Assembly: GCF_002161085.1 (NCBI RefSeq)
Contig: NZ_NFLU01000002.1
Coordinates: 186,001 to 250,000 of the forward strand
Length of the DNA stretch: 64,000 nt
Reading direction: 5' to 3'
From: Flavonifractor sp. An112
GTDB taxonomy: Bacteria > Bacillota > Clostridia > Oscillospirales > Oscillospiraceae
In this document: positions 5,024-49,072 of the stretch, one piece after another
Numbering within the stretch: the first letter of the stretch is position 1
Layout of the letters: each line of letters begins with the position of its first letter
The notes under the pieces: model-generated
Database searches by the model: none
Told to the model about the DNA's origin: nothing
The model's input: the letters and a program-made list of their open reading frames with translations, nothing else
Translations under genes and position numbers: made by a program

Positions 5024-5300
5024 TACAACTTGCAGTTCATCCTCTGGGATGGACGCTTCAAATGCGATGACCGGGACAGTACGGGCGGCGCATAAGCGCA
5101 GAGAGGGAGCGGTTGGTGTAAGCTCCCGTGAGGCCGCATCGGAAGGTCACCCGGGAGCGGCTCCGCCGAAGGCAGTAGGCGGGGACGGTTACCCTCCGTT
5201 ACCGGGGCATGAGTGCGCGGGTATGCCCGCGAAGTTAGGTGGTACCACGGAGTGTCATGGCGGCTTCGTCCTATGGGACGAAGCCGCCATGTTATTTTTC
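5024..5300 (+). promoter_or_regulatory. T-box riboswitch upstream of ilvB
   Basis: The leader has the hallmarks of a T-box that senses uncharged tRNA. Stem I has AGTA on the 5' side of the specifier loop, the GAGAGG motif and the GGTTGGTGTAAGC-type distal loop (5101-5122). The conserved T-box sequence AGGTGGTACCACGG is at 5237-5250. A strong intrinsic terminator follows: CATGGCGGCTTCGTCC (5256-5271) pairs with 5276-5291, then a T-rich run. The specifier is probably GTC (Val, 5146-5148), which follows GGAAG and precedes an A; ATC (Ile, 5138-5140) is the less standard alternative. Both suit branched-chain control. Confidence 0.92.
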
Positions 5301-7042: not shown

Positions 7043-7056
7043 GGAGGGTGTGGAAT

Positions 7057-7614
7057 ATGAATGAAATGAATGCCACCCGCCGCACCCTTTCGGTGCTGGT
7101 AGAAAACGCCGCCGGTGTCCTGTCCCAGGTCTCCCGGCTGTTCTCCCGAAAGGGCTATAACATCGAGTCTCTGGCCGTGGGCACCACCGACGATCCCACG
7201 GTGTCCCGTATCACCATTGAGGTGTGGGCCGACGCCCCCATGATCGAGCAGATCATGAACCAGCTTCGCAAGCAGTACCCCGTCTATTCTGTTCAGGAGC
7301 TGAAGCCGGAGCGTTCCATCCGCCGGGAGCTGGTGATGTTCAAGGTGAAGGCGGAGACCCACGACATCCGCAACGAGGTCATCCAGATCGCCAACATTTT
7401 CCGGGCCTCCATCATCGACGTATCTCTGAAATCCCTGACCCTGGCCCTCATCGGCGATGAGACCAAGGCGGAGGCCATGCAGAAGCTGCTGGAGGCCTTC
7501 GGCATCCTGGAGCTGGTCCGCACCGGCATGGTGGCCCTGGAGCGGGGCGCCTATACCATTGAGGACGAGACCAAGGAGCAAACCGAGTTCAACCTGGGCA
7601 AAAACTTCCTTTAA
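7057..7614 (+). CDS. ilvN: Acetolactate synthase, regulatory subunit
   Basis: The small subunit (185 aa) binds branched-chain amino acids and gives feedback control of IlvB. It has an N-terminal ACT domain (about residues 8-82, RTLSVLVENAAGVLSQVSRLF) and the C-terminal ALS_ss domain. The ATG at 7057, 8 nt after AGGAGGG, is preferred to the in-frame GTG inside that ribosome site. Its last 83 coding nucleotides are repeated 290 nt downstream at 7822-7904, beyond a hairpin-rich insert. The gene itself is intact and ends with the first copy. Confidence 0.95.
   Translation: MNEMNATRRTLSVLVENAAGVLSQVSRLFSRKGYNIESLAVGTTDDPTVSRITIEVWADAPMIEQIMNQLRKQYPVYSVQELKPERSIRRELVMFKVKAETHDIRNEVIQIANIFRASIIDVSLKSLTLALIGDETKAEAMQKLLEAFGILELVRTGMVALERGAYTIEDETKEQTEFNLGKNFL
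7532..7614 (+). repeat. Direct repeat copy 1: functional 3' end of ilvN
   Basis: This 83-nt stretch is the working end of ilvN and matches 7822-7904. The first 54 nt (7532-7585) are identical in both copies. After that, eight of the last nine sense codons differ, each by a synonymous third-position change (for example GAG/GAA, TTC/TTT, AAC/AAT, CTG/CTC, GGC/GGG), and both end in TAA. The codons here fit the GC-rich usage of the host better than those in copy 2. Confidence 0.9.
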
Positions 7615-7821
7615 GAAGGGCCACCAGGCCGCTACCGGCGGCCCGCCGCTGTGCGGCGTCCAAGCGTTTTGCGCAGCAAAACCTTGCCGCAGGGGCAATT
7701 CACTGCACAGCCGTTGGCGGCTTTGCCGCCCTACGGATGTGGCGTACCCCTTGCGGGTACTTCCGCCGAGGAGGTTAAATCCGCCCGGAGGGCTCCCAAA
7801 CGTGCCTGCACGTTTGGGAAC
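7615..7821 (+). mobile_element. Gene-end insert E1 (hairpin-rich, non-coding), after ilvN
   Basis: This 207-nt segment lies between the two ilvN tails and shares its core with the inserts after rnc and trmFO, in the same orientation relative to the host gene. It has a chain of hairpins: GGCCGC/GCGGCC, CGCCGC/GCGGCG, CAAGCGTTTTGC/GCAAAACCTTG, GGCGGC/GCCGCC, GTACCC/GGGTAC and, at the 3' end, CCCAAACGTGC/GCACGTTTGGG. No hairpin has a following T-run, so it should not stop transcription inside the ilvBNC operon. No protein-coding frame is supported. I do not recognise the family. Confidence 0.75.
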
Positions 7822-7904
7822 TGGCCCTGGAGCGGGGCGCCTATACCATTGAGGACGAGACCAAGGAGCAAACCGAATTTAATCTCGGGAAGAATTTCCT
7901 GTAA
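7822..7904 (+). pseudogene. Displaced second copy of the ilvN 3' end
   Basis: This is a duplicate of the last 27 codons plus stop of ilvN, lying downstream of insert E1 without a start codon or ribosome site. It still encodes the same residues as the functional tail, with eight of its last nine codons synonymously different. Because ilvC follows it, it probably marks the original ilvN end; that is an inference. Its last codons are richer in A/T than is usual for this genome. Confidence 0.85.
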
Positions 7905-8034
7905 TATTTTAGAAATACAAGCCACGCCGAAATCTTTTCTGAGATTGTATCACACTTATCATTCTTTTCTTCCCCGCTGTGTTATCATCGTGGACAAGAA
8001 AAAAACCTTCATTTGACAAAGGAGTGCAAAGACT

Positions 8035-9054
8035 ATGGCTAAGATGTATTACGAGAAGGACTGTGATCTGTCCTACCTGAACGGCAAGAAGATCGCCATC
8101 ATCGGCTACGGCTCTCAGGGCCACGCCCACGCCATGAACCTGAAGGATTCCGGCTGCGATGTGTGCGTTGGCCTGCGTGAGGGTTCCAAGAGCTGGGCCA
8201 AGGCCGAGCAGGCCGGTCTCCAGGTCAAGACCGTTGCCGAGGCCGCTCAGTGGGGCGACATTGTGATGATCCTCATCAACGACGAGGTTCAGGCTGAGGT
8301 TTACAAGAAGGATATCGCTCCCTACATGACCGAGGGCAAGGCCCTGGCTTTCGCCCACGGCTTCAACATCCGCTATCAGCAGATTGTGCCTCCTGCCGGC
8401 GTGGATGTGTTCATGGCTGCCCCCAAGGGCCCCGGCCACACCGTCCGCTCCACCTACGTCAACGGCAAGGGCGTGCCCTGCCTGGTGGCCGTGGAGCAGA
8501 ACGCCACCGGCAACGCCTATAAGATCGCCCTGGCCTACATCGCCGGTATCGGCGGCGCCCGCGCCGGCGTCATGGAGACCACCTTCCACGACGAGACCGA
8601 GACCGACCTGTTCGGTGAGCAGGCTGTGCTGTGCGGCGGCGTAGTGGATCTGATGAAGTGCGGCTTCGAGACCCTGGTGGAGGCCGGTTACGAGCCCGAG
8701 AACGCCTACTTCGAGTGCATCCACGAGATGAAGCTCATCATCGACCTGATCAACAAGGGCGGCGTGGCCGCCATGAACTACTCCATCTCCGACACCGCCG
8801 AGTACGGCGAATATGTGTCCGGTCCCCGGGTGCTGCCCTACGAGGAGACCAAGAAGAACATGAAGGCCGTGCTGGCCGACATCCAGGACGGCACCTTCGC
8901 CGGCAAGTGGATCGCCGAGAATAAGAACGGCCGTACCTTCTTCAACTCCAAGCGCGCCGCGCTCAAGAAGCACCAGATGGAGATCGTGGGCGAGGAGCTG
9001 CGCAAGAACATGATCTGGGGCGGCGACACCGACCTGGATACCGCTTCCAACTAA
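8035..9054 (+). CDS. ilvC: Ketol-acid reductoisomerase (NADP+)
   Basis: IlvC isomerises and reduces acetohydroxy acids to dihydroxy acids, the second common branched-chain step. At 339 aa it is a class I (short) enzyme. The Rossmann motif [10 protein letters not shown] is at about residues 24-33, and [11 protein letters not shown] follows, a loop of the type that favours NADPH. Metal-binding acidic residues lie in the [14 protein letters not shown] and [11 protein letters not shown] segments. AAAGGAGTG precedes the ATG. It is 130 nt beyond the displaced ilvN tail and ends at a strong terminator. Confidence 0.97.
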
Positions 9055-25313: not shown

Positions 25314-25490
25314 AGGAAGTCCACAGGAAAAAGCCGACGGCTTGCCGAAGGAGCAAAACTCTCAGGCGTTTCCCCCGGGAAATGAGGACTGTGGATGGAT
25401 GTGGCTCTGGAGAAGTCCCCCCAGCGGGGATGCCGAAGGTGCAACGCGCCCCCATGGGGCACGAATCTCTCAGGCAAAAGGACAGAGTGA
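25314..25490 (+). promoter_or_regulatory. Tandem glycine riboswitch (gcvT type)
   Basis: Two consecutive aptamers are visible. Aptamer 1 has the core from GCCGAAGGAGCAA (from 25344) to CTCTCAGGC (ending 25367), closed by AGTCC (25319 region) pairing with GGACT. Aptamer 2 has GCCGAAGGTGCAA (from 25432) to TCTCTCAGGCAAAAGGACAG (ending ~25486), closed by CTCTG/CAGAG. This is the cooperative tandem form. It precedes an amino acid symporter gene rather than gcv genes, consistent with control of glycine transport. Confidence 0.93.
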
Positions 25491-46419: not shown

Positions 46420-46468
46420 TCAGCCCTTCAGCTTCTCAATGGCAGCTTTGGCGGTATTCTGCTCCGCC
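46420..46468 (-). pseudogene. Displaced second copy of the rnc 3' end
   Basis: These 49 nt repeat the last 49 nt of rnc (46628-46676), 208 nt away, including a TGA stop. Six positions differ: five are synonymous (AAG/AAA, GCC/GCT, ATC/ATT, AAA/AAG, GGT/GGC) and one changes Ala to Thr. There is no start codon. The old terminator follows directly, so this is probably the ancestral rnc end. Confidence 0.82.
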
Positions 46469-46627
46469 CCCAAACCGCACGGCGGTTTGGGAACCCCATT
46501 TCATTCTATCTGTCCGGGTGAAGTGAATTCACCCGGCATCAAGGTTTTGCCTCCGGCAAAACGCTTGGCGCCGCAGAGCGGCGGCTCGCTTACGCTCGCA
46601 AAAGAGGCGGAGCACTCTGGCAATCAC
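46469..46627 (-). mobile_element. Gene-end insert E2 (hairpin-rich, non-coding), after rnc
   Basis: This 159-nt segment lies between the functional and displaced rnc tails. In the sense of rnc it reads as GCGAGC/GCTCGC-type, CGCCG..CGGCG, CAAGCGTTTTGC/GCAAAACCTTG, CCGGGTGAA/TTCACCCGG and a final CCCAAACCGCC..GCGGTTTGGG hairpin that directly abuts the displaced tail. The core aligns with E1 and E3. It carries no T-run terminator and no coding frame. Confidence 0.78.
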
Positions 46628-46676
46628 TCAACCCTTCAGTTTCTCGATGGCGGCCTTGGCGGCATTCTGCTCCGCC
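46628..46676 (-). repeat. Direct repeat copy 1: functional 3' end of rnc
   Basis: The working end of rnc, matching 46420-46468 at 43 of 49 positions. The differences are confined almost entirely to third codon positions. Confidence 0.82.
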
Positions 46677-48780: not shown

Positions 48781-48852
48781 CAGCCCTCTACATCCAGTCC
48801 CGCCAGCATTTCCAGAGCCCGCTTGGAGAGTTCGGCATTCTTGTTCCGCTTG
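48781..48852 (-). pseudogene. Displaced second copy of the trmFO 3' end
   Basis: Sixty-four nt (48789-48852) are identical to the last part of trmFO (49009-49072), 220 nt away. The end differs: this copy would finish ...LDVEG-stop (TGA), while the functional gene finishes ...LDVK-stop (TAA). It has no start codon and is followed by plsX, so it probably marks the original trmFO end. Confidence 0.88.
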
Positions 48853-49002
48853 TTCCCCACGGAAATCATATTTCCGTGGGGGCCCCGATCCTTAAATCTG
48901 CTCGGGCGAAGTGAATTCGCCCGGCATCAAGATTTTGCTTCGCAAAATACTTGGCGCCGCACGGCGGCGGGTCGCTTTCGCTCCCGGGTAAGCGGACGCG
49001 CC
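48853..49002 (-). mobile_element. Gene-end insert E3 (hairpin-rich, non-coding), after trmFO
   Basis: This 150-nt segment sits between the two trmFO tails. In the sense of trmFO it has CCGCCG..CGGCG, CAAGTATTTTGC/GCAAAATCTTG, CGGGCGAA/TTCGCCCG and a terminal CCCCACGGAAAT/ATTTCCGTGGGG hairpin abutting the displaced tail. Compared with E2 several stem pairs differ on both sides so that pairing is kept. No coding frame, no T-run terminator. Confidence 0.78.
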
Positions 49003-49072
49003 TTATTTTACATCCAGTCCCGCCAGCATTTCCAGAGCCCGCTTGGAGAGTTCGGCATTCTTGTTCCGCTTG
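49003..49072 (-). repeat. Direct repeat copy 1: functional 3' end of trmFO
   Basis: 49009-49072 is identical over 64 nt to 48789-48852. Only the last three codons (GTA AAA TAA here) diverge from the downstream copy (GTA GAG GGC TGA). Confidence 0.9.

Follow-up and report, generated by a model that had tools for sequence, protein, structure and literature searches.

Within a 64,000-nt stretch of the genome of Flavonifractor sp. An112 (contig NZ_NFLU01000002.1, positions 186,001 to 250,000; hereafter the window), a 207-bp element that we call E1 lies between two copies of the 3′ end of ilvN, which encodes the small subunit of acetolactate synthase. E1 belongs to a family of structured elements that occupy exact sites in conserved genes, carry a short segment matching the host sequence at the insertion boundary, and are flanked by two gene ends that differ almost only silently. 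On comparative evidence, we favour as on balance probable the reading that E1 is a guided homing element that carries in, or duplicates, a replacement end for its gene. A more specific version, a protein-less, guide-directed home-and-rescue element that has spread through Oscillospirales gut bacteria, is plausible, although we would stop short of calling it probable.

Two silently divergent ends of ilvN around a structured element

The current translation of ilvN (positions 7054–7614 of the window, forward strand; open reading frame with Pfam ALS_ss_C / ACT) ends in the first copy of a tail repeat (copy 1, 7532–7614), which is followed by E1 (7615–7821) and then by copy 2 (7822–7904), at a spacing of 290 nt. 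The two copies are identical over 7532–7586, a perfect stretch that the first-pass annotation had recognised but counted as 54 rather than 55 nt. Beyond it, copy 1 continues GAG TTC AAC CTG GGC AAA AAC TTC CTT TAA and copy 2 GAA TTT AAT CTC GGG AAG AAT TTC CTG TAA. Eight of these nine sense codons differ, in every case at the third base and in every case silently, just as the annotation had described, and random placement would leave all eight differences outside one 55-nt run of the 83 nt with a probability of only ~0.0005.

E1 itself matches the covariance model of the family over 7644–7820 (79.6 bits), and all its parts are read here on the forward strand. Near its 5′ end lies a guide-like segment (7617–7630; AGGGCCACCAGGCC), the reverse complement, with one mismatch, of a target in host sequence (7525–7540) that straddles the left boundary of the repeat (7531/7532). 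It is followed by hairpins P1 (7627–7643; GGCCGCTACCGGCGGCC), P2 (7644–7658; covarying helix 1) and P3 (7661–7686; covarying helix 2), the last of which contains a bulged C and is the most conserved part of the family, then by the P4 region (7692–7771) and by P5 (7795–7818; covarying helix 4), which forms the 3′ edge of the element and is variable in sequence yet paired. Inside its P4 loop, E1 has ~55 additional nt (AGCCGTTGGCGGCTTTGCCGCCCTACGGATG..., 7705–7759) that recur in the P4 loop of an element in a different gene of a different species (L162, G019); this segment is a nested insert with a site preference of its own.

A family of structured elements across the genus

A similarity search of the 207-bp insert against its own genome returned 13 partial matches besides itself, most of which, when read singly, sit between two copies of some gene end. 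A covariance model built from 14 own-genome copies then scored 29 strong copies in the 2.96-Mb Flavonifractor genome, three of them in the window, at ilvN, rnc and a trmFO-like gene. The element is present in all 20 of 20 members of the genus, with 6 to 50 copies above cut in each, and, among 245 genomes sampled from the order, in 22. Elements also occur at ilvN in two other genera, Intestinimonas and Pseudoflavonifractor, where inspection by eye shows differing guides that each fit their own target. The insert, which had first been considered as a matter of ilvN, is therefore not peculiar to that gene and belongs to a genus-wide family with guide-like ends.

Four helices of the family covary. 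Pairing is retained in 99.0% of cells, 26 of 33 pairs are altered on both sides, and double-changed cells number 535 against 146 after shuffling, whereas sliding the partner lowers pairing to 35–53%. Fitting the alignment to the model biases it towards pairing, but would not inflate the count of two-sided changes this far. By these compensatory base-pair changes the element qualifies as structured, putatively in the form of RNA. None of the Rfam matches overlaps an element, and no group I, group II or other described RNA family was recognised; a literature search likewise found no described relative. The family thus appears to be undescribed and a new kind of element. No terminal inverted repeats were noticed in the elements read and no transposase family was matched to them, nor was an autonomous, gene-bearing form found in searches that bore on it only indirectly. 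Tandem arrays (G017, G016, L128, L131) and remnants (G015, G003) are consistent with elements being gained and lost repeatedly; ordinary unequal exchange across direct repeats would produce them as well.

Exact sites and a matching segment

The organisation of E1 is typical of the family. Across 129 element copies from the 20 genomes of the genus, 118 are flanked by a direct repeat of the gene end, with a median length of 66 nt and a range of 26–138 nt within genes, and in these 118 copy 2 starts adjoining hairpin P5. A guide of ~13 nt, placed near the 5′ end of the element between the end of copy 1 and P2, is complementary to host sequence on both sides of the left repeat boundary; relative to random windows of the same locus, the match reaches p < 0.01 at 74 and p < 0.05 at 92 of the 118 loci. 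In the latter, selected set of 92 loci, the per-position match is 0.88–0.97 from −3 to +6 and returns to a background of ~0.27 outside −6 to +12. At a given locus, guides also fit their own species' target better than the targets present there in other species (893.5 vs. 829.7 ± 9.8, permutation p ~1e-4). The match is equally good for antisense elements that duplicate gene starts (hisS, truB and others), which indicates that it concerns the DNA strand and not the mRNA of the gene. As in homing, the exact insertion site is conserved and reused across species, with the same base of the same gene occupied in 10 species for gdhA, 6–7 for oppF and 4 for rnc. In being dispersed non-coding copies with flanking direct repeats, the elements also resemble miniature inverted-repeat transposable elements (MITEs).

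At some loci (L058 / L072 / G014_L160 and similar) the duplicated stretch extends over a transcription terminator; the stem of the terminator at L070 is apparently rebuilt so as to contain the guide.

Silent divergence between the duplicated ends

Among 85 coding repeat pairs from the genus, codon differences between copies comprise 213 silent and 45 amino-acid changes, where random substitutions would yield 64 silent and 188 amino-acid changes (minimum of 163 amino-acid changes in 1,000 simulations). This bias implies that, until recently, each copy served as a working gene end. It supports the earlier proposal that two tails with separate histories as working code were later united, and extends it from ilvN to the family. 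Across species, the ratio of amino-acid to silent codon changes is 0.235 for copy 2 and 0.148 for copy 1, with ~2.9 expected under neutrality, and duplicated gene starts show the same silent divergence. By eye, copy 2 harbours many of these amino-acid changes and, now and then, a premature stop; it is thus dispensable in its present position, yet has had little time to decay.

What travels with the element

Element sequences are closer within a locus than between loci, even inside one genome (distance 0.16 vs. 0.26), and this clustering by locus, not by genome, gives no sign of recent hopping between genes. In pairwise comparisons, element distance correlates with that of the far half of copy 1 (rho 0.31) but not with the near half of copy 1 (0.01) or of copy 2 (−0.01), while the two near halves correlate with each other (0.79); these values come from non-independent pairs. 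In trmFO of G000 and G015, for example, the elements are 1% apart, the far halves of copy 1 0% and the near halves 19%. The cleanest case is truB. The copy 1 context LA[QH]GRRG-MANG is common to G001, G007 and G015, whereas the copy 2 contexts of G015 (PSRRWKT-MPNG) and G001 (PSGRWKR-MANG) resemble the PSGRWK[TRP] of insert-free relatives; copy 2 of G007 departs from both (PPRKEAL-MPNG). The context of copy 1 is thus linked to the element and that of copy 2, in G001 and G015, native as far as sequence comparison goes. Together with near-identical elements in diverged genes, truB indirectly supports transfer into an empty site.

At ilvN, the end of copy 1, CTT TAA GAAGGGCCACCAGGCC, is common to the element-bearing tail of G016, with one difference in 29, and an ilvN remnant in G015 starts like the far end of E1 copy 1 and the bases that follow it. 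What follows copy 2 is the native TATTTTAG region before ilvC, an untranslated region also present in insert-free G006. A comparison of ilvN 3′ ends in relatives, as the first-pass annotation had proposed, accordingly places the far end of copy 1 with another element-bearing lineage and the flank of copy 2 with the local one, except that the G006 tail itself is closer to copy 1. That annotation had also considered its account endangered if an insert-free tail equalled copy 1 and copy 2 had drifted from it with amino-acid changes; G006 is indeed near copy 1, but copy 2 of E1 shows zero amino-acid changes relative to copy 1. Its interpretation of the perfect stretch as a recombination or conversion tract is supported in that the stretch is a tract ending inside the tail; this identical portion, however, is the one towards the target and resembles sequence native to the recipient, whereas the far part of copy 1 goes with the element. 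Its more speculative idea, that recoding protects the new end from re-insertion, is not supported, given that copy 1 begins with an intact target site and that tandem arrays exist in G017 and G016.

Several other differences were observed around ilvN. In a contig of G011 (L153) compared with window positions 7822–8434, ilvC is 97–99% identical and the first 54 nt of the tail are identical; the final 29 nt of the tail differ silently, and the first bases past the stop differ as well. This pattern represents either a short replaced patch or contamination of a metagenome-assembled genome (MAG) by a near strain. A small acetyltransferase-like gene lies between ilvN and ilvC in several relatives (L031, L126, L142 and others), and in G017 it immediately follows a truncated element.

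The remaining two copies in the window are both on the reverse strand. One (46466–46583, guide 46600–46614) is located at the 3′ end of rnc, which encodes RNase III, between tail copies at 46628–46676 (copy 1) and 46420–46467 (copy 2) in which five of six codon changes are silent. The other (48854–48969, guide 48983–48997) is at the 3′ end of the trmFO-like gene (Pfam GIDA), where copy 1 (49009–49072) and copy 2 (48789–48852) are identical across 64 nt; here copy 1 ends LDVK*, and the native end is LDVEG*. Rfam matches in the window include a T-box leader 5′ of ilvB (5058–5276) and tandem glycine riboswitch aptamers (25314–25487).

A proposed model of guided homing with a replacement end

Under the reading that we favour, the unit would be small and apparently protein-less, and would consist of the ~13-nt 5′ target-matching segment, hairpins P1–P5 and, to the left, the distal portion of a replacement end that would bring its own stop and sometimes a terminator. 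The matching segment would direct this unit to one exact place within a conserved gene, 30–110 nt from the gene's end. Joining of the 3′ edge past P5 at that site would make everything rightward, i.e. copy 2, the recipient's own gene end, and joining of the left edge by homology within the tail would leave copy 1 recipient-like near the site and donor-lineage-like farther out. The gene would remain intact, now terminating in copy 1, and the two ends would differ almost only silently because each was a working gene end until their union. For ilvN, the first 55 nt of the tail would be the recipient's own, and the final 28 nt of copy 1 would have arrived with E1. Copies could be lost through recombination between tails, multiplied in tandem by the same route, and regained by re-homing from other lineages.

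In the protein-less version, to which we gave the lower probability, a ~200-nt structured RNA or folded single strand would find its target through ~13 nt of complementarity and be joined by host machinery or an uncharacterised enzyme. Transcription of the element, DNA targeting and the joining reactions would all be components of such a process, and mobility is suggested by the comparison of genomes. The order of guide, hairpins and copy 2 resembles a primer-binding design, which hints at reverse transcription. Target-primed insertion driven by a reverse transcriptase (RT) would fit this anatomy, but was set aside given many-copy genomes without RTs.

Weighing the alternatives

A number of observations weigh against guided homing. 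Insert-free G006 has an ilvN tail nearer to copy 1 (one difference in the last 29 nt) than to copy 2 (seven), despite an untranslated region of the copy 2 type; G006 may represent a lineage that lost its element via recombination between tails. At gdhA, the element of G019 is dissimilar and still has P1, P5 and the terminator in common with the others, which implies a contribution of vertical descent. The correlations above draw on dependent comparisons in which pairs with near-identical elements are few, many of the genomes are MAGs, and no strain pair differing solely by one insertion was found. The guide could also be a by-product of insertion that is kept paired by other means. Finally, searches for TnpB, HNH and RT genes did not reveal a mobilising enzyme in this genome: a nuclease search that covered these two types gave no TnpB and one small HNH match (G000), and there is no nuclease in the element. 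The only RTs are a Drt4/Drt6-like defence RT (L052, G000:C1) and that of a diversity-generating retroelement (DGR) with a variable protein in a prophage-like region (L053, G000:C23), and none is near E1. No RVT_1 match was obtained in G042, G066, G085 and G128, four element-rich genomes of another family (at least 13–14 scored copies each), and a Y1 transposase was undetectable in the same four and lacking in many element-bearing genomes.

Several of these points would be expected if the elements were old insertions with unusually long target-site duplications that have since been inherited vertically, an explanation that we consider unlikely but deserving of real weight. The guide would then have arisen through fold-back copying across the boundary and its match been maintained either through template switching or because RNA structure is under selection, and the silent divergence would reflect recombination with insert-free strains along with unequal exchange restoring working ends. 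Clustering by locus, the P1 and P5 common to gdhA elements with different cores, the truncated trmFO copy 1 end common across species and the lack of an enzyme are all in keeping with it, and direct repeats would produce arrays and losses anyway. It predicts, however, a donor-like and decaying copy 2 on the target side, whereas the near halves match one another without following the element, and copy 2 has barely decayed (0.235 vs. ~2.9 under neutrality). A plain target-site duplication followed by drift of the unused copy would account for the identical repeats at some loci (71/71, 64/64, 83/83), but is contradicted as a general account by the 213:45 ratio against an expected 64:188, and by 8:0 at E1; we find it scarcely credible, as had the first-pass annotation. 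Independent, unrelated insertions at one base, an idea raised by distant same-locus pairs, were dismissed when P1, P5 and the terminator turned out to be common to them.

Selection on both copies could instead be combined with copying between them. If copy 2 were a template rewritten repeatedly into copy 1, as in a DGR without mutagenesis, its low amino-acid divergence and the homogenised near halves would follow, and a prophage DGR RT does exist in the genome. Yet native contexts adjoin copy 2 and element-linked contexts adjoin copy 1, the E1 differences are of all kinds and silent with no adenine bias, and several element-rich genomes have no detectable RTs, making this possibility a distinctly improbable one. 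We regard as more improbable still a small intron whose splicing would unite the boundary with copy 2, with the guide as an internal guide sequence that would bring the two exons into register. The guide does complement the contiguous junction that splicing would make, but copy 1 already provides an intact gene end, Rfam gives no match to group I, group II or other families, and splicing was rejected mainly on account of antisense insertions at gene starts with the same silent divergence and guide match. The duplicated starts of hisS and truB also led us to reject a cassette restricted to gene ends.

Relation to known systems and significance

Like homing introns and homing endonuclease genes, the E1 family combines exact conserved sites, locus-specific lineages, patchiness, flanking tracts and housekeeping targets, but it has neither an endonuclease gene nor splicing, and a duplicated end keeps the gene intact. 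Its short complementarity between structured element and insertion junction recalls group II introns and the internal guide of group I introns; unlike these, E1 spans only ~210 nt without recognised catalytic domains and sits after a restored gene end, and, unlike for group II introns, several element-rich genomes contain no RT. Integrative elements that use gene 3′ ends as attachment sites replace the 3′ end of the gene with an element-borne version, as E1 would do, whereas E1 has no integrase, measures 207 bp, and belongs to a family in which a variable complementary segment fixes the site in many genes per genome. MITEs and repetitive extragenic palindromic (REP)-type repeats are similarly small, dispersed, hairpin-rich, non-autonomous and flanked by direct repeats, but without the 26–138-nt repeats within genes, the locus-specific lineages and the guide of the E1 family. 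Engineered home-and-rescue gene drives would have in common with E1 their site-specific spread and the recoded substitute for the gene end that is interrupted; E1 differs in being natural, in having no identified nuclease, and in that the target of the occupied allele is not destroyed. In tandem interspersed guide RNA (TIGR) arrays and IS110 bridge RNAs, each guide has two spacers that pair with opposite strands, and a Tas or IS110 protein takes part (PMC12045711); E1-type elements have a single contiguous footprint on one strand only.

Even under vertical inheritance, the family represents an abundant structured element that remodels housekeeping gene ends (ilvN, gdhA, oppF, rnc, trmFO, truB, hisS and others) and misleads annotation in common gut bacteria. 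With ~29 loci per genome readable in any strain collection, the question is directly testable. If guided homing is correct, a second working gene end would constitute a third route to harmless site-specific mobility, beside RNA splicing and protein splicing, and a natural counterpart to engineered recoded-rescue homing designs, and these elements might open a new way to insert DNA at guided sites with neither a recognised nuclease nor a recognised reverse transcriptase.
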